Positions 1 through 7,145 of a DNA stretch of 7,145 bases are shown here, one piece after another. Both the position numbers and the translations under genes were made by a program. Within the stretch, counting starts at the first letter, position 1, and each line of letters begins with the position of its first letter. Location: positions 1-7,145 of the forward strand of contig JAJRUA010000278.1 of NCBI GenBank assembly GCA_024278035.1, read 5' to 3'. Below the pieces are notes generated by a model. That model did no database searches, was not told where the DNA came from, and saw only the letters and a list, made by a program, of their open reading frames with translations. Origin of the DNA: Planctomycetota bacterium. GTDB taxonomy: Bacteria > Planctomycetota > Planctomycetia > Pirellulales > Lacipirellulaceae.

Positions 1-2136
1 GAACCGACAGGGCCACTGCTTACAGAACCTGATTTTATTGCTGAACAAGAGGAGCCCCGTTCACTTGAGAGCAAGGCATCCGAAGACATCGTCGCAGAAG
101 AACAGAAAACAACGGCCCCCTCCCCACACCAAGCCGGACCACTCTTTGCTGCTCCTTCGGCAGATACCTTGGACGCCGTGGTTCCCGAAACGCCATCGGC
201 TCCCTCTCCCCGCAACCAGCCGGGCACCTCGGAAAACCTCCCCGAAGAAAAAGTGCGGCCGAAAGAGGTCGTTTCCGCTCCCACCAAGCTATTTGCACCT
301 CCTGCCCCTGCTTCCCCATCCGCTTCGCACCACCCGACCCCTTCGATCCATGGAGCGGGCGCCGCAGCGGCTGCGCGTAAGGCGGCGGCTGGCAAGTCGG
401 CCGACCTGTCGCATGCTGAGCTGTATGCTCAAAATTGTTATCCTTCGGCGAAGGATTGCGCGAAGTGCCACGAGAAAATCTACAACGAGTGGAGCTTGTC
501 GAGCCACGCCTACGCCTATGTCTCGCCCATGTTCCATCGGTTCGAGCAGACGATCAACGACTTGAGCCAAGGGACTATCGGCACGTTCTGCCTGCGTTGC
601 CATTCACCGGCAGGCATCTCCATGGCTCCGGCAGTAGGTGAAAACAGAGCAACTCCGATCGCCGAGACCTCTGCCGTCACTCGGGACGGAGTCGGCTGTA
701 TTTCTTGCCATCGGGTCAACGAACGGTTTGGCAAAGTAAACGGCGAACGGCGGATCGTACCGGGCGACTTGTTCGACCCCGTTTACGGTGGCCTGGATGG
801 CGACGGCGTCGCTGCAGCGATTGCGGATAAGACGAAGCACAAACTAAAAACGTCCGCTGATGAGAAGGGACCAGGGCAGCCCATCCATAACGAAGGACGG
901 TTTTTCGACCAACTCACTCGCGCCGAAGTCTGCATGAGCTGTCATCAAGTGGCCGTTCAGCCGGGGATTAAGCTTGAAGTCGTCTGGGAGCAGTACCGCG
1001 CCTCGCCGGCGTGTAAGAAGGGCGTGAGTTGCCAAGATTGCCACATGGGCCGTGTGCCGGGCATTCCCTCTGGCTACAACTATGGCCCCATCGCAGAGAT
1101 CAATGGCAAAACGGTCCGAACCGATCGAAAGCAATCGAACCACTCGTTCTACGGCCCGGGCTACTCGATCGCCCATCCGGGCATTTTCCCTCAGCATCCT
1201 AAGTCGGAGCGGTGGAGCATCGACGAGTGGATGCTCTTTGATTGGCGTGCTGGTTGGGGAACCGAGGCGTTTGAGGACCGCATTGCCGATGCCGAAGAGG
1301 CAGGCCAAAACCTGGCTGCCATGTTCCCGCCGATTTGGCGCGAAGTGGATGATCGCTACGATGCGCGGGATATTGTCGCGGACAATCTTGAGAAGCTGAA
1401 AATTAAGCGGTGGCAACGGGAACAAGTGATGGAGAACGGCTCGAAAGTCGACGGCCCCTTCTTCCGCGATCCGCCGATTGCGGGGCAAGACCTGAAGTTT
1501 GAGTACATCGTGACAAACCTCAACGAAGGGCACAACTTGCCGACGGCGTCGCTGGGAGCACAGCCGCAGCTATGGGCCAACGTCGTGTTGATCGGCCCCA
1601 ACGGGCGACGGGTTTGGGAGAGCGGCTACACCGATTCGCTGGGCGATGTGTGCGATATCCATTCCGAGGATGTGCAAAAAGGCCGGGCTCCGTACGATTC
1701 GCAACTGTTCAACTTGCAGACGATGTTTTTGATTACCGGAGCGACCGGGACCGATCGAGAGTTTTTCTTGCCGGTGAATCTGAGCATTGATCAGGTGGCA
1801 CTTTTGAGACCGGGCGTCCAGCCCATAAGCGTGATGAACCATCCGCCGTTTATCCGCATGGAGAGTCGCTCGATTGCTCCGCTGGGAAAGAAACGGGCCA
1901 AGTACCGTGTGCCGGCGGAGGTAATGCGTCAGCCGGGGCATTACCGTCTGAGTTTCCGACTGAGAAGCCGTCTCGAACCGATGTACTTTATGCGTTTCGT
2001 CGGTGCGACGGAGGAGATGCAGCGAGCGATGACCGAGGGGATCCTCGACGTTCACCCGATGAGCATTGAGTTTGAGGTGAAGGCTCCGCTACCAACGGCC
2101 CAACGGCCCGCTTTGAATGAGGGGTGGAGACGATGA
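1..2136 (+). CDS. Pentahaem c-type cytochrome, cytochrome c554-like, 5'-truncated
   Basis: The reading frame is open from the first base, so the gene starts upstream; 711 residues are visible. In-window residues 1 to about 140 are rich in Pro, Ala, Glu and Ser and look like a disordered linker; a signal peptide, if any, lies outside the window. Five haem-binding CxxCH motifs follow: CAKCH 153-157, CLRCH 197-201, CISCH 233-237, CMSCH 311-315 and CQDCH 344-348. The segment around the first motif resembles the cytochrome c554 family. After the haems comes a haem-free C-terminal half with an N-x4-GHNLPT motif (residues 506-515), a pattern I associate with beta-sandwich domains attached to multihaem cytochromes. 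It should act outside the cytoplasm, transferring electrons or reducing a small substrate. All motifs are CxxCH; there is no CxxCK as in NrfA and too few haems for hydroxylamine oxidoreductase. The exact function is unknown. Its stop overlaps the start of the barrel gene by 4 nt. Confidence 0.9.
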   Translation, partial: EPTGPLLTEPDFIAEQEEPRSLESKASEDIVAEEQKTTAPSPHQAGPLFAAPSADTLDAVVPETPSAPSPRNQPGTSENLPEEKVRPKEVVSAPTKLFAPPAPASPSASHHPTPSIHGAGAAAAARKAAAGKSADLSHAELYAQNCYPSAKDCAKCHEKIYNEWSLSSHAYAYVSPMFHRFEQTINDLSQGTIGTFCLRCHSPAGISMAPAVGENRATPIAETSAVTRDGVGCISCHRVNERFGKVNGERRIVPGDLFDPVYGGLDGDGVAAAIADKTKHKLKTSADEKGPGQPIHNEGRFFDQLTRAEVCMSCHQVAVQPGIKLEVVWEQYRASPACKKGVSCQDCHMGRVPGIPSGYNYGPIAEINGKTVRTDRKQSNHSFYGPGYSIAHPGIFPQHPKSERWSIDEWMLFDWRAGWGTEAFEDRIADAEEAGQNLAAMFPPIWREVDDRYDARDIVADNLEKLKIKRWQREQVMENGSKVDGPFFRDPPIAGQDLKFEYIVTNLNEGHNLPTASLGAQPQLWANVVLIGPNGRRVWESGYTDSLGDVCDIHSEDVQKGRAPYDSQLFNLQTMFLITGATGTDREFFLPVNLSIDQVALLRPGVQPISVMNHPPFIRMESRSIAPLGKKRAKYRVPAEVMRQPGHYRLSFRLRSRLEPMYFMRFVGATEEMQRAMTEGILDVHPMSIEFEVKAPLPTAQRPALNEGWRR
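2119..2124 (+). promoter_or_regulatory. Ribosome binding site deciding the start of the barrel gene
   Basis: GAGGGG lies 8 nt upstream of ATG 2133, inside the last codons of the pentahaem gene. It supports ATG 2133 over the in-frame GTG at 2124, which overlaps this site. With the ATGA stop-start overlap it suggests translational coupling of the two proteins. Confidence 0.6.
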
Positions 2137-3851
2137 TTCACGCACGGTTCAAAACGGCCGCTCTGTTGTTTTGCTACTTGCTGATAGCAGCAGAATCGGC
2201 ACACGCTCAAGAAGGCCCCCTCTTCACGGCACCGGCGATCGCTTCGGAAACCCCCGCCCCGCTGCGGACCGCCTGGACTTGTGGCGTGGAGTCCGGTTTT
2301 CAGCCAGCAGTGGGTCGGTTCGGACTTTTTCCGCCTCCGCCCCTCGACGAAGCCCCCTACGCTCACTCTGCCTACGGAGATTGCGGCGTCACGAACAAAA
2401 AAGAAAGCGAAAAGGAAAAGAAGGGGAAAGAAAAAATCCCCCTGGTTGAAACGCACCCCCCTCGTATCGATCCAAACGCCTATGGCGTTCCGTGCGCGAC
2501 GGGCGACTTTAGTGCCGACGCCTTTTTCGATCAAGCGTACAACGGACGTGAAGAGCAAAAAGCCTACAGCGACAAAAAAGAGATCGACACGCAGCGGCCA
2601 CTTATCGAATGGGGATTGCCTTTTTACCAAGCGGGCCCTATTCCGCAGTCGAAAGAATGGTTCGGACCGACGAACTTGTCGCAACCGAAGTTCTATGTTT
2701 ATGGCGACTACCGTTTGGCTTTCGCCCAAAATGATTTGGTCGGTCGCGAAGAGACGGTGCTTGCCCATCGGCTCAATTTGGATGTCGATTTTATGCTGAC
2801 CGCAACCGAACGAATCCATGCGTTCATCGGCCCGTTCCAAGAGGACGGTCGTTTTATGCGGGTAGTCAACGGGGAGTTTTTTGGGGAAGCGAGCTTTTTC
2901 CAGGCGGACACCGACGCCCTGTTTTTTGAGGGCGACTTGGGACAAATCCTGGGCGGCCTTGAGCACCAGTACGCTTCGTTCGACTTGCCTGTGACGGCGG
3001 GACTGATTCCACTGCTCTTTCAGAACGGCGTTTGGATGCAGGATGCGATCGTGGGCGTTGCGGCAACGATTCCCGCACGAAACAGCCCGGGGCTCGATTG
3101 GTCCAATTATGACGTGACCTTTTTTGCCGGCGTCGATCGCATATCGACGGGCGCGTTCGACTTTGACGACGACGCGGGCGCTTTGCTCGGGGTGACGACG
3201 TTCATCGAATCGCGCGGCGGGTACTTCGAGATCGGCTATGGCTACGTGAGTGACCAAGAAGGGGAAGACCGAAGCTACCACAATATCGGAATCAGCTACA
3301 CTCGCCGCTATTTGGGAGCGATCTCCAACTCCGTACGGGTCCTTATCAACACAGGACAAGACCCCAATGGGGGAGCCCGGCAGACAGCCGACGGCGTGTT
3401 GTTGCTGGTTGAAAACTCGTTGCTTTCGTCGAACCCCTACAATACGGTTCCTTACCTCAATTTCTTTGCTGGCTTTGATCGTCCCCAACCGCTTGCCCGG
3501 GCGGGTGCCTTTGGTGGAACGCTGTTCAACACGGGCATCTTGTTCCAAGGAGACCAACTCACCAGCTATCCGTCCCTTGATGCAACGGGCAACAACACGG
3601 TCGGTGCGGCGGTGGGAATCGATTTCTTATCCCCTGCGTTCAATCAACAATTGATTTTAGAAGTCGCGGCGGTCCACGCCACAGGCCCGGCCGTAAACCG
3701 AGCCGCCGCCGGCGATCAAGTCGGTGCCGCCGTTCGCTGGCAAAAGCAACTCACCACGTCGCACCTTATAAGAGCCGACGCCATGGTCGGCCTCCTCGAC
3801 AATTCAGATGACATCGCTGGTGCCCGCGTTGAATACCGCTGGAAGTTCTAA
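2133..3851 (+). CDS. Putative outer-membrane beta-barrel (porin-like) protein
   Basis: This 572-residue protein begins with a signal peptide (basic start, hydrophobic residues 8-20, likely cleavage after AHA at 25). Mature residues 26 to about 185 form a soluble-looking region with PPPP, three cysteines (C50, C84, C121) and a Lys/Glu-rich stretch at 88-101. From about 186 onward, alternating aromatic and aliphatic segments with Gly/Asp/Asn turns look like amphipathic beta strands (for example YVYGDYRLAF, GGYFEIGYGYV, VEYRWKF). The chain ends in Phe, the usual beta-barrel assembly signal. I infer an outer-membrane channel but recognise no named family. It has no CxxCH motif. Its coupling to a multihaem cytochrome gene raises the option of a porin-cytochrome conduit; an ordinary porin is the simpler alternative. 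The predicted barrel is smaller than MtrB-type sheaths, which run to about 700 residues. ATG 2133 is chosen for the ribosome binding site and the 4-nt overlap. Confidence 0.75.
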   Translation: MIHARFKTAALLFCYLLIAAESAHAQEGPLFTAPAIASETPAPLRTAWTCGVESGFQPAVGRFGLFPPPPLDEAPYAHSAYGDCGVTNKKESEKEKKGKEKIPLVETHPPRIDPNAYGVPCATGDFSADAFFDQAYNGREEQKAYSDKKEIDTQRPLIEWGLPFYQAGPIPQSKEWFGPTNLSQPKFYVYGDYRLAFAQNDLVGREETVLAHRLNLDVDFMLTATERIHAFIGPFQEDGRFMRVVNGEFFGEASFFQADTDALFFEGDLGQILGGLEHQYASFDLPVTAGLIPLLFQNGVWMQDAIVGVAATIPARNSPGLDWSNYDVTFFAGVDRISTGAFDFDDDAGALLGVTTFIESRGGYFEIGYGYVSDQEGEDRSYHNIGISYTRRYLGAISNSVRVLINTGQDPNGGARQTADGVLLLVENSLLSSNPYNTVPYLNFFAGFDRPQPLARAGAFGGTLFNTGILFQGDQLTSYPSLDATGNNTVGAAVGIDFLSPAFNQQLILEVAAVHATGPAVNRAAAGDQVGAAVRWQKQLTTSHLIRADAMVGLLDNSDDIAGARVEYRWKF

Positions 3852-3857
3852 AAAAAC

Positions 3858-3940
3858 GAATCCGCCACGGAGAACACAGGAGACACGGAAAAGAATTAGA
3901 CGCGGATGAACGCGGATTGGTCGGATAAGCACGGATCAAT
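3858..3940. repeat. Degenerate short-period intergenic repeat block
   Basis: Two adjacent periodic tracts fill the start of the convergent intergenic region. The first has CAC(A)GG cores at 3866, 3875 and 3884, a 9-bp period. The second has CGGAT cores at 3903, 3913, 3922 and 3932, spaced 9-10 bp, and includes CGCGGATGAACGCGGAT at 3901-3917. From memory, near-identical phrases occur in dispersed intergenic elements of many Planctomycetes and other environmental bacteria; I cannot search to confirm this. A further phrase of the same flavour, ATCTGCGTCAATCT, is at 4005-4018. The rest of 3852-4046 is AT-richer, with no gene and no convincing stem-loop plus T-run terminator for either converging group. 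Confidence 0.55.
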
Positions 3941-4046
3941 GAAAAAATCACCCCTCTCCACGAATCGGTTGAGGAAAATGCGTGTTCATTTTTAGGGAGA
4001 TATTATCTGCGTCAATCTACCCGATATTGCTACACTGCTCCGGAGT

Positions 4047-6119
4047 CTAATTTTTCTCCGTGCCCACTGCGATCTCCGTGGTAAATCCTTCCGCTGATTG
4101 TGGTGAGACGTGGTAGTTGTGGCATTGGGTGCAATGGTCGCCGGCGGCTTGAGGGCGGTGGCAGTCCGTGCAAGCCGACTTGGAAAGCGAGAGAAACTCA
4201 CTTCTAAAACGGTGGGGATCGCCCCCAACATAAACGGCTTTAAGGTCCGCCGACGGATCTATTTTATGGCAGTGAGTGCAATCGGCCAGTTCGGGCTGCG
4301 ACAAGTGCGGACGGTGTGAGAAATGAGTAAAACCGCGCGGTTCGCTCCGTCGATTGCGCCCTGACCAGTGAACGACGGGCACGCCCAGCGCGTCACGATC
4401 AAGGCTATGGCATGTGAAACAGGAGCCGGAGGCACCTTGTCGCGTGAACTCCGCTAAGCACGCTTCGCGCAGTTCGTTTTGGGCCTCGGGTAGAGCAACG
4501 ATTAAATCGATCCACGCCCGAAGGAAAGGATCATCATGGCCCGCCGGACGGTAACGGAGCGACAACGAAGGGCCGTCGAGCCACCAGCCACCCCCGGTAC
4601 GACGGTCTTCCATCGCGTCGAAATTTGCAAACGATGGCGAGCTTTCCTTACGGAACCAAACCGCCTGCAACTGATCGACCAGTTCGATTGGTAGTCGGCT
4701 CACCAGGTCGGCAAGCGAAACCGGCAAAGCGGTCGTCCCGAGTAACGTTCGTAAACGATTGTCAAAATTCGCGTGCCCCTCTTCTTGAAGCTCTTCGAGG
4801 AGGTTCCGTAGCGAATCGACGACATTGGCCGCCAAAGCGACCTGCTGAGGATCGTCCGCGTTAATATCGAAAAATGAAAAATCTTCGCCAAGCTGTCCGA
4901 ACGCTTCGCTCGCTTGCGGATCGGCGGCAAGCAACAGCTTGAGCAGTGCGGGCAACTCGCCATCGAAGTCGCCAATCGCTGCGGCAGGCCATTCACGAAG
5001 TGCGTGCCCCGCTTCGCTGAGGGCCGAATCGTCGAGCGTTGGTAAAGCGAGCAAGGGGATGCCACGAGCAAAACTCTTCGCAAGATCGGCTTCATGGCAT
5101 TCGCCACAAGAGGCGTTGTAATCGAGGCGAGCCGTGAGATCGCCCGTCGCATCGATTCCATGGCACTCACGGCAATCGAAGGGACGCTCCGCTTTGTCAA
5201 AGTGAAACGCTTCGTGGGATGCGTGGTTGAAGGTGATTCGCGTCCGTCGCACATAAGGCCAGGGACCAAAATCAGGGTGCCCCGATTCGGCAGGACTACT
5301 GACGAAGTCGGCGAAGACCTCCTGATGACACGCTTGGCAGCGGGCGTCGGTGAGGGCCGTTAGGTCATGCTTTGCGCCATGGTGCTCTTGATGGCAAACG
5401 GCACAGGCAAGCGGTTCATTAGGCGAGGCGTGATTTTTTGGGGGGGCAAGCGTTTCGGTGGGAAGTCCGTGTGCCAACAAAGGCTCTGCGCCCGGCATGG
5501 AAAAATTTTGGTGGCATTTAAGACAAAGCATGGACTGCGTTTCTTCCGAGGCCCCGGCACCGCGTACGCCATCGCCAACTAAAGTGAGAGCGTCGCCATT
5601 CGCGCCCGGGTGACACGTGGCACACCGTTCGGTCCCCGCTGTGCGAGCGATCACTTGGGCATGATGGGAAGTGAGCGTCCCTGGAACAATCCACTCGTTT
5701 CGGTCTGCTGAGCCGAGCGTCAAGAGTATCGCTCCGAGCGAAAGCAGCGCGGCTCCCCCGATCCAACGGCCTCGTCGAACACGCAGGCTTCGCTTCGGTT
5801 TGCAATGGCGGGCAAGGCAACACTGGCCCTCGGGCGTCGGTCCTTCTCCGTCGCCCTCGGGTCCGTCGCAAGGGCCACCGCGCAGCTCCGATCGATTGCA
5901 AAGCCATCGGTCCCCATCACGGACCGGTTGGCATTCAACAGCCCCGGGGCATCGTCCCGACGTTGTTGGCCCTGCAGAACAGGGACACCCCTCTTCCTCT
6001 AAGCCGCAGAGCCAAGAGCGATGGGGACGATCGTAGTCGGCTGGCGGAGTGTCGCCGTACAGATTGGCCCGGCGGGGTGGCCTTTTTTCGTCGTCTGAGT
6101 GGGGCTCAGGATTGGTCAT
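4047..6119 (-). CDS. Membrane-anchored decahaem c-type cytochrome with Cys-rich N-terminal head
   Basis: The protein has 690 residues. Residues 1-110 carry ten cysteines (38, 45, 47, 57, 63, 74, 84, 100, 101, 106). A basic stretch (residues 108-118) and one hydrophobic helix (about 119-136) follow, so by the positive-inside rule the Cys-rich head is cytosolic and the rest periplasmic. Ten CxxCH motifs start at C166, C199, C239, C261, C316, C338, C567, C614, C650 and C663. A haem-free segment of about 224 residues (343-566) splits them into groups of six and four. Extra histidines near the motifs could supply bis-His ligation. Likely role: accepting electrons from the cytochrome b encoded just upstream and passing them through the periplasm. 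MtrA also binds ten haems but is far shorter and soluble, so this is not MtrA. ATG 6119 is chosen because GGAGGTG lies 4 nt upstream and the start overlaps the previous stop as ATGA; a start at 6212 would overlap that gene by 97 nt. Confidence 0.92.
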   Translation of the reverse strand: MTNPEPHSDDEKRPPRRANLYGDTPPADYDRPHRSWLCGLEEEGCPCSAGPTTSGRCPGAVECQPVRDGDRWLCNRSELRGGPCDGPEGDGEGPTPEGQCCLARHCKPKRSLRVRRGRWIGGAALLSLGAILLTLGSADRNEWIVPGTLTSHHAQVIARTAGTERCATCHPGANGDALTLVGDGVRGAGASEETQSMLCLKCHQNFSMPGAEPLLAHGLPTETLAPPKNHASPNEPLACAVCHQEHHGAKHDLTALTDARCQACHQEVFADFVSSPAESGHPDFGPWPYVRRTRITFNHASHEAFHFDKAERPFDCRECHGIDATGDLTARLDYNASCGECHEADLAKSFARGIPLLALPTLDDSALSEAGHALREWPAAAIGDFDGELPALLKLLLAADPQASEAFGQLGEDFSFFDINADDPQQVALAANVVDSLRNLLEELQEEGHANFDNRLRTLLGTTALPVSLADLVSRLPIELVDQLQAVWFRKESSPSFANFDAMEDRRTGGGWWLDGPSLSLRYRPAGHDDPFLRAWIDLIVALPEAQNELREACLAEFTRQGASGSCFTCHSLDRDALGVPVVHWSGRNRRSEPRGFTHFSHRPHLSQPELADCTHCHKIDPSADLKAVYVGGDPHRFRSEFLSLSKSACTDCHRPQAAGDHCTQCHNYHVSPQSAEGFTTEIAVGTEKN

Positions 6120-6964
6120 GCCGCACCTCCCCGAAAGGCAACGGCCAGCAAACCATGCAATGCGCCGAAGAGAATTAGCCCCCAAGTAAGCGCGACATGG
6201 GCAAAAACCCACAACTTCAGAAGCCCTTGTCTCGATTCATGGAAATCAAGGTCATCCTTCCTGCGTACGAGCTTAAAGAGCCGCTCACCGGCCATATGTT
6301 CTCCTTCGGTCGAAAGGCGATCGATGGCCGTAAGTTCATCGAACAGCCGCTTACGGGTTGCGCTAGTCGGTCGCCACCAGTAAGCAAGTGAGCGTGGTCG
6401 AGCGAAGAACCCATGCAGCCGGTCGGCATAATAATCGGCTAAGGTCGTCGCGCCGGTTGCATGGACAGCACGAAGGACCGTCGCCCGCGCTTCGTTGCGA
6501 ACTTGGGCCCGGAGCCGTGGAATCCGTTCGTAAATGAACGGTTCCCCCGTCCGTGTGATTTGCTTCGGAATCGTTCGTGTTAGGTAAAGTCCTATCAAGC
6601 CACTTGTGAAAGTGGCGAGAAAAAGAAAAGCCAGTAAGCCTTCGATCCAACCGCTGGGCCAGCTTAAGCCCCCTCCGGCGGGGTGCTGTGCCGTAAGATG
6701 CCACCAAAAAATCATGCCTGAGCCCATCCCCGTCCAAAGATGCGCCTGCATCCAACCGGCACTACTGCCCAATGGCAGACTGGGCAGTTTCTTCCGAAGA
6801 TTGTAAGCCGCTAGGAACAGGACCATCGTATAAAGGGCATAGCCCGTAGCATGGCCCGATCGAGCAAGCGAACGATCGAGCCAAGCCATCCAAACAACGA
6901 CCGCCACCCCACCGCCGGCAAGCAGCAAGGCATTTTTTATTCGGCGGCGAGTAAGATAACGCAT
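6116..6964 (-). CDS. Five-helix membrane protein, probable dihaem cytochrome b
   Basis: The protein has 282 residues and no signal peptide. Hydrophobic helices lie at about 10-29, 38-56, 72-92, 107-128 and 248-275. Helix 3 carries H75 and H89 and helix 5 carries H256 and H270; both pairs are H-x13-H, the spacing that binds two stacked b haems in cytochrome b-type four-helix bundles. Basic residues at the N-terminus, at 57-59 and throughout the 129-247 loop put the N-terminus and that loop in the cytoplasm. H75/H256 would then sit toward the cytoplasmic face and H89/H270 toward the periplasmic face. This suits transmembrane electron transfer between a cytosolic Fe-S partner (gene 6 nt upstream) and the periplasmic decahaem cytochrome (gene overlapping by 4 nt). 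I do not recognise the specific family. There is no clear Shine-Dalgarno before ATG 6964, so translation may be coupled to the preceding gene. Confidence 0.75.
   Translation of the reverse strand: MRYLTRRRIKNALLLAGGGVAVVVWMAWLDRSLARSGHATGYALYTMVLFLAAYNLRKKLPSLPLGSSAGWMQAHLWTGMGSGMIFWWHLTAQHPAGGGLSWPSGWIEGLLAFLFLATFTSGLIGLYLTRTIPKQITRTGEPFIYERIPRLRAQVRNEARATVLRAVHATGATTLADYYADRLHGFFARPRSLAYWWRPTSATRKRLFDELTAIDRLSTEGEHMAGERLFKLVRRKDDLDFHESRQGLLKLWVFAHVALTWGLILFGALHGLLAVAFRGGAA
6124..6130 (-). promoter_or_regulatory. Strong ribosome binding site of the decahaem cytochrome gene
   Basis: On the minus strand GGAGGTG ends 4 nt before ATG 6119. It is a full 7-base match to the 16S anti-Shine-Dalgarno core CACCTCC. 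It lies within the last codons of the cytochrome b gene and fixes the decahaem start at 6119. Confidence 0.75.
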
Positions 6965-6970
6965 CGTTTT

Positions 6971-7145
6971 CTAGCGATTGGTCCAGGTCGTCAGCGGCGC
7001 CGGTTCGGCTAAGTTAATCCGAACCAGTGCATCGTGGGGACAAGCGTTTTGACAGGCCGGACCGGTCCATTGATCGACGCACAGGTCACATTTGGTTGCC
7101 CGCAAGATCGGTTGGCCCGTGGTTTCATCAAAGATGAAGGCTTCC
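6971..7145 (-). CDS. 4Fe-4S ferredoxin-type protein, C-terminal end only
   Basis: Only the last 57 residues are in the window; the gene enters from the right edge. They hold four cysteines in the order C-x2-C-x8-C-x3-C-P, in KCDLC followed by GPACQNACPHDAL. This is the pattern of a 4Fe-4S site in DmsB/NrfC/HybA-like electron-transfer subunits and in C-terminal ferredoxin domains of larger oxidoreductases. Such proteins pass electrons to or from a membrane cytochrome. The four visible cysteines would complete one cluster, or share it with a second motif upstream. The stop codon (complement of 6971-6973) is 6 nt before the cytochrome b start, indicating one operon. Whether the full protein is cytosolic, Tat-exported, or a fusion with flavin or nucleotide-binding domains cannot be seen here. 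Confidence 0.85.
   Translation of the reverse strand, partial: EAFIFDETTGQPILRATKCDLCVDQWTGPACQNACPHDALVRINLAEPAPLTTWTNR

Follow-up and report, generated by a model that had tools for sequence, protein, structure and literature searches.

The closest described system to the locus studied here is PCC4, a putative porin-cytochrome cluster proposed by He et al. in 2017 with Planctomycetes among its hosts (PMC5566968). With hosts from iron-rich habitats in view, they proposed that an external donor supplies electrons which end up in the quinone pool. For the inner-membrane protein of both PCC3 and PCC4 they give a signature of five helices, with WX3HX13H on the third and fifth transmembrane helices (TM3 and TM5) and SGXXG on TM4; the two HX13H pairs are placed as in the ferric reductase superfamily, and dihaem proteins of this type can be quinone-active (PMC5566968). 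Our search of the open-licence literature found no experimental study of PCC4, and the available text of a 2026 metagenome paper mentions the name a single time. Here we analyse a stretch of 7,145 nucleotides, hereafter the window, from a member of the Lacipirellulaceae (Planctomycetota, Pirellulales; GenBank assembly GCA_024278035.1, contig JAJRUA010000278.1, positions 1 to 7,145). Its minus strand encodes the end of an iron-sulphur (Fe-S) protein, a dihaem cytochrome b and an anchored decahaem cytochrome c. The set almost certainly belongs to subgroup II of PCC4, and we propose that it may form part of an electron wire fed by NAD(P)H and running outward.

Results

The three minus-strand genes occupy positions 4047-7145. 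The first in order of transcription encodes the Fe-S protein, called the hub below; it has its stop codon at 6971-6973 and stays open to the right edge of the window, which cuts it and leaves the 57 C-terminal residues (6971-7145) with one CxxC...C...CP motif, one of four cluster motifs when aligned to relatives. The cytochrome b gene (282 amino acids), corresponding to the PCC4 'inner membrane protein', starts at ATG 6964, 6 nt from the hub stop codon, and ends at 6116. The decahaem gene (690 amino acids) runs from ATG 6119 to 4047 and overlaps the cytochrome b gene at its stop codon by 4 nt (ATGA); an alternative GTG start at 6212, giving a longer open reading frame (ORF), was not used. An initial annotation, made from the letters of the window, had given the same coordinates and spacing and had described a two-b-haem membrane protein and a ten-haem cytochrome with its own anchor, and all of these statements agree with the present analysis.

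The three genes recur together well beyond the window. Scanning a single genome for each species gave 19 loci (L001-L019), whose titles name Planctomycetes, Verrucomicrobia (L008, L013 and L015), Gammaproteobacteria and one 'uncultured bacterium'. The nearest named relatives are Botrimarina, with 60-63% identity for cytochrome b, 52-57% for the decahaem and 62-67% for the barrel protein described below. With profiles built from the window and locus proteins, cytochrome b adjoins the decahaem in 19/19 loci (in L008 it lies at 8651-9334), and the hub lies directly upstream of cytochrome b in all 18 loci with room for it, L005 beginning at a contig end. Outside the window, a reductase gene and a tetrahaem cytochrome gene stand directly upstream of the hub in 15/15 loci with room. 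In L008, L010, L011, L013, L015 and L016 seven genes share one strand, in the order pentahaem, barrel, reductase, tetrahaem, hub, cytochrome b, decahaem; in L001-L003 the pentahaem and barrel genes converge on the rest, as they do in the window, and in others the pair is found elsewhere. Whole genomes behind 16 of the loci were also searched (L005, L014 and L019 being left out), and decahaem, barrel, tetrahaem and reductase were each found in 16 of them and the pentahaem in 15. A 1035-amino-acid ORF in L018 was considered as a fusion of hub and cytochrome and rejected: it has no cysteine, and the hub is found upstream in another match.

A wider sample covered 244 genomes of the phylum to which Botrimarina colliarenosi (G002) belongs, with E limits set after the lists were seen. 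Cytochrome b occurs in 26 of them (E <= 1e-29), the decahaem in 29 (E <= 1e-20), the hub in 27 (E <= 1e-80) and the barrel in 43 (E <= 1e-20), of which 37 were kept. Every one of the 26 cytochrome b genomes holds all four families, against a chance expectation of 2.9 to 4.4 per pair; the hypergeometric p values are too small, because they assume independence among genomes that are related. The hub adjoins cytochrome b on the same strand in 27/27 loci, as does the decahaem in 26/27, the last having the two on different contigs. Since the best 4 to 10 candidates were scored per genome, absences are less sure than presences. The count excludes 15 of 41 genomes with a weaker cytochrome b match (E 3e-22 to 6e-12) and, of the 43 genomes with a barrel, six whose match lies at E 1e-30 to 1e-43; a second copy or second fragment was likewise not counted. 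Thirteen of the 15 weak matches end at or before model position 160, those of G205 and G235 extending further; these 15 genomes have no hub at E <= 1e-80, a decahaem in two (G068, G235) and a barrel in four (G053, G068, G082, G235). With them included, cytochrome b and decahaem coincide in 28/41 genomes.

Some genomes depart from the common pattern. The barrel occurs without the full four-gene set in G037, G053, G068, G074, G082, G096, G151, G199, G225, G235 and G243. The decahaem lies on the barrel's contig and a hub is absent in G068, G151 and G235, perhaps as other cluster sub-types, and the arrangement in G068 and G235 resembles subgroup I in the scheme of He et al. (PMC5566968). G062 (contig C1) has four decahaem-family genes in its genome, one of them beside cytochrome b, with the barrel megabases away.

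Judged by gene context, hub, cytochrome b and decahaem are one conserved module. The initial annotation had proposed such a three-gene module, naming rare co-occurrence in other genomes as the result that would speak against it; the families in fact coincide in 26/26 genomes. The module stands, and three genes are too few for it: relatives add the reductase and tetrahaem, and the pentahaem and barrel genes lie within the window itself, at 1-3851. The same annotation could match the set to no system it could name, a view we replace, as the three genes make up the part of PCC4 subgroup II at the inner membrane (PMC5566968). The features shared with that subgroup, as He et al. outline it, are the barrel, cytochromes with five and ten haem motifs, an inner-membrane protein with two WX3HX13H motifs and SGXXG, and a pfam13247 Fe-S gene upstream of the gene for that protein (PMC5566968). 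The subgroup also has a cytochrome with four haem motifs and a redox gene upstream of it (PMC5566968); in the relatives the tetrahaem, with the reductase directly before it, fits this pair.

Cytochrome b (6116-6964, minus strand) carries the full signature, with W71-X3-H75-X13-H89, W252-X3-H256-X13-H270 and S121GLIG. H75, H89, H256 and H270 are histidine in 75/75 aligned homologues and form H-X13-H pairs on two helices, the sequence signature of two b haems. From the flanking charges, H75 (6740-6742) on TM3 and H256 (6197-6199) on TM5 would be candidate ligands on the cytosolic side, with H89 (6698-6700, TM3) and H270 (6155-6157, TM5) on the periplasmic side. The AlphaFold2 model has a mean pLDDT of 93.5 and five membrane-length helices, its helical segments spanning residues 2-31, 36-59, 68-91 and 106-137, followed by a helical region and then by 220-276, which holds H242, H256 and H270. 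H242 (6239-6241) is histidine in 72/75 rows and lies 14 residues before H256, in step with the spacing of the haem ligands, in a part of this long helix that is below the membrane. A Pfam search of the protein gave no family at E <= 1, and hence no match to the ferric reductase transmembrane domain.

The decahaem (4047-6119, minus strand) scores above the cut-offs of PF14522 and PF22113. Its ten CXXCH motifs are present in 19/19 aligned rows, and in 117/120 homologues among the matches listed. Exactly ten further histidines are invariant in 19/19 rows, with an eleventh in 18, so a second histidine ligand is possible for every haem. The ten-haem region covers residues 153-670 (4110-5663), and H153 stands 15 residues past a hydrophobic membrane anchor at residues 120-138 (5706-5762), which was located by hydropathy scan and follows an arginine-rich stretch. 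The same scan found no anchor in the decahaem of L014. Ahead of the anchor, residues 38-106 (5802-6008) form a tandem four-cysteine domain, placed on the probable cytosolic side by the arginine-rich flank. Each copy follows the pattern C-x8/9-C-x9-C-x5-C-x-P with GP...G before the third cysteine, the second copy in the window being longer by an insert. No Pfam family covers this domain at E <= 1; the repeats might, as a guess, be two metal sites holding Fe-S or zinc.

The domain is present in the window, L001-L003, L008-L013, L015, L016 and L019 and is seen in three phyla, and at least eight cysteines precede the first haem in 108/120 decahaem homologues among the matches listed. A count of the pattern, which allows overlapping matches (4 or 5 meaning two copies with nested starts) and leaves L004 uncounted at a contig end, gave none in L014, L017, L018 and L005-L007 and none in 220 control ORFs. 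The decahaems of L017 and L018 have many cysteines of different spacing at the same position. Those of L004-L007, the Pirellulaceae group, have no cysteine before the anchor and keep the flanking YxRPN and arginine-rich stretches; this is loss of the cytosolic cysteine domain in one lineage.

The full hub is known from relatives. The window fragment could be aligned to the C-terminal ends of 16 full-length proteins and is 65% identical to that of L002; on its own it is too short to show PF13247. Two hub relatives were scanned and both score above cut-off for cNMP_binding and PF13247. The alignment shows 16 cluster cysteines in 16/16 rows, with no twin-arginine motif in any, and no 19-residue segment exceeds a hydropathy of 1.6 in 14/16 (L008 and L017 do). 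Sixteen cysteines in such spacing usually hold four [4Fe-4S] clusters, as in proteins of the DmsB/NrfC type. In the cyclic-nucleotide cassette, a region outside the window, the glutamate is kept in 16/16 relatives and the arginine in 15/16, L002 having histidine, and a hub with this domain may bind a cyclic nucleotide. Two of the reductases were scanned and have FAD_binding_6, NAD_binding_1 and Fer2 domains; the motifs RCYSLS and CxxGxCGxC occur in 12/12 aligned sequences, with an N-terminal segment of hydropathy 1.56 to 2.86. The tetrahaem has four CXXCH motifs and four further invariant histidines in 12/12 rows.

The left part of the window encodes, on the plus strand, a pentahaem cytochrome whose 5' end is cut off (1-2136) and an outer-membrane barrel protein of 572 amino acids (2133-3851), the 'porin' of the cluster, the two genes overlapping by 4 nt. 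A search of the 195 bases between the converging plus- and minus-strand blocks found no terminator-like site. The pentahaem scores above the PF13435 cut-off and has five CXXCH motifs, preceded by a linker rich in Pro, Glu, Ser, Thr and Ala; five CXXCH and six further invariant histidines are found in 10/10 rows. In L001-L003 (16154-19456, 14700-17909 and 15162-18131; window 1-456) there is one hydrophobic segment at the start, and then a linker of about 420 to 520 residues before the first haem, of which 57-60% are these five residue types; six further loci have their first haem at residue 41 to 86. One guess would be that the long linker tethers the inner membrane to the outer one. The AlphaFold2 monomer model of the barrel consists of 16 long strands and some shorter ones, about 18, and matches OprD/Occ, MOMP and AlgE. 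Residues 24-134 (2202-2534) are mostly below pLDDT 50, and the barrel protein of the Gammaproteobacteria is shorter by about 100 residues.

Discussion

The analysis establishes gene content, gene order, co-occurrence and the conservation of motifs and candidate ligands. We infer the order of electron transfer, its outward direction, its control by a cyclic nucleotide and its acceptor, and propose an outward electron wire fed by NAD(P)H, to which we give a probability of roughly 0.5. The membrane-anchored FAD/[2Fe-2S] reductase, encoded outside the window and seen in the relatives, would take electrons from NAD(P)H and hand them to the cytosolic hub, with its four putative [4Fe-4S] clusters; the cyclic-nucleotide-binding domain of the hub suggests gating and may control the flow. 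The hub would reduce the cytosol-side b haem of cytochrome b, from which the electron would cross to the periplasm-side b haem and pass into the ten-haem chain of the adjacent anchored decahaem. The tetrahaem and pentahaem would then carry electrons towards the outer-membrane barrel; the last recipient would be either a soluble mediator let in by the barrel or an acceptor situated at the outer membrane or outside it.

The cytosolic end is probably NAD(P)H because conservation of the membrane pair extends to two redox proteins of the cytosol, and such an input would imply an outward direction on general bioenergetic grounds. Electrons from NAD(P)H that move outward run downhill in both redox and electrical terms, and the reverse movement through a plain haem wire is uphill in both. 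The relay would resemble NADPH oxidases and ferric reductases, split over several proteins and extended by a multihaem chain, so that quinone need not take part. A fuller and more tentative version of the proposal, which we think less probable, is that PCC4 in planctomycetes, verrucomicrobia and proteobacteria would be a cyclic-nucleotide-gated NADPH oxidase taken apart, sending electrons outward past the quinone pool, with the four-cysteine repeats of the decahaem adding metal sites on the entry side.

Several observations weigh against the NAD(P)H-fed wire. The use of NAD(P)H is read from the domains of the reductase, whose gene lies outside the window. The published PCC4 model ends in the quinone pool (PMC5566968), and cytochrome b may hold a quinone site. 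In comparisons of the cytochrome b model with PDB folds there was no significant match and none above helical-bundle noise, the NADPH oxidase (NOX) and b561 rows included. L004-L007, a lineage that keeps the cluster, have no four-cysteine domain, which is therefore not essential to the wire. At the outer membrane, the barrel monomer model resembles OprD and AlgE and is unlike a cytochrome sheath; the predicted 18 or so strands, in place of the 26 of MtrB, weaken the picture of a cytochrome inside the barrel.

The published direction is the main alternative to the outward wire: an external donor, such as Fe(II), would reduce the outer-membrane and periplasmic cytochromes, and electrons would pass through cytochrome b into the quinone pool. 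He et al. proposed this route for PCC4 with the iron-rich habitats of its hosts in view, and the quinone activity known for some dihaem HX13H proteins accords with it (PMC5566968). So does the haem chemistry, as no haem of the periplasmic cytochromes is clearly without a candidate second ligand and a pure wire is plausible. Delivery to quinone, however, does not account for the conservation, on the cytosolic side, of a reductase of the NAD(P)H type and a hub with four clusters, and the barrel model is closer to channels of 18 strands than to MtrB with its 26; we consider this route rather unlikely.

The same channel-like model gives rise to a different explanation, in which an OprD/AlgE-like channel would admit a soluble substrate or shuttle (a metal chelate, a flavin or a humic compound) to be reduced in the periplasm by the haem proteins, and electrons would never cross the outer membrane through protein. 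The histidine counts speak against such reduction, since further invariant histidines number ten for the ten haems of the decahaem, six for the five of the pentahaem and four for the four of the tetrahaem, and no haem offers itself as a candidate catalytic site. The channel, moreover, is that of a monomer model, and a small haem domain can be imagined inside a narrow barrel, as has been proposed for Cyc2. We regard this explanation, together with its consequence for the outer membrane, as unlikely, somewhat more so than the published route. That hub, cytochrome b and decahaem are merely neighbours with no common pathway is highly improbable, as their order and strand are kept in loci across three phyla and as they coincide in 26/26 genomes against the 2.9 to 4.4 expected per pair, even if the genomes are related.

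The gene set as such has been described as the putative PCC4 cluster, and the interest of the present analysis lies in a re-reading of its mechanism and in its cytosolic domains, of which we found no description in He et al.; the words 'FAD', 'ferredoxin' and 'cAMP' are absent from their main text (PMC5566968). What is new is the NAD(P)H-like input, the cyclic-nucleotide-type hub, the cytosolic tandem four-cysteine domain of the decahaem and the OprD/AlgE-like barrel model, and with them a wire that may bypass quinones and run outward. The best-known bacterial routes of extracellular electron transfer start at the quinol pool. If the proposal is true, there would be another route for dumping electrons, one that starts at NAD(P)H, is under second-messenger control and occurs in phyla whose extracellular electron routes have received little study. 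It is directly testable because all seven genes lie on one strand in six loci.

The module was also compared with other known systems. Verrucomicrobia porin-MHC was considered as the same system and rejected, as its cytochromes have eight haem sites (PMC5615132). Among the matches listed, the five window proteins reach no NCBIfam equivalog cut-off for NrfABCD, formate dehydrogenase or hydrogenase modules. With Fe-S subunits of the DmsB, NrfC and HydN type, the hub of the relatives shares the sixteen cluster cysteines and a PF13247 score above cut-off; it differs in lacking the twin-arginine motif and in carrying cyclic-nucleotide domains, and its NCBIfam scores are far below the cut-offs among the matches listed. 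MtrCAB likewise combines a decahaem with an outer-membrane barrel, but MtrA sits within a 26-strand barrel (PMC7198977), whereas the decahaem here has a cytosolic domain followed by a membrane anchor. Its profile matches chain A of 6R2Q, the Mtr complex of Shewanella baltica (PMC7198977), with an E value of 4.8e-7 that haem-motif spacing alone may explain; the database label of that chain, 'Cystathionine beta-synthase', seems wrong. CbcL of Geobacter sulfurreducens also leads from a transmembrane dihaem b domain to a periplasmic multihaem c domain with bis-His c haems, but it is one polypeptide of six helices and nine c haems (PMC9129911). Membership of the CbcL type is thus not supported, as the dihaem b and the c haems here lie in two genes, with five helices and ten c haems, accompanied by the hub and the reductase. 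NADPH oxidases and ferric reductases (FRD, PF01794) have HX13H on TM3 and TM5 in common with cytochrome b and, with the reductase, a flavin-NAD(P)H protein in the cluster. PCC4 itself remains the nearest relative, and He et al. placed all three of its cytochromes in the periplasm and the end of the wire in the quinone pool (PMC5566968); the loci compared here differ in the cytosolic cysteine domain on the decahaem, the cyclic-nucleotide-type hub and the OprD/AlgE-like barrel model, and extend the cluster to three Verrucomicrobia loci.

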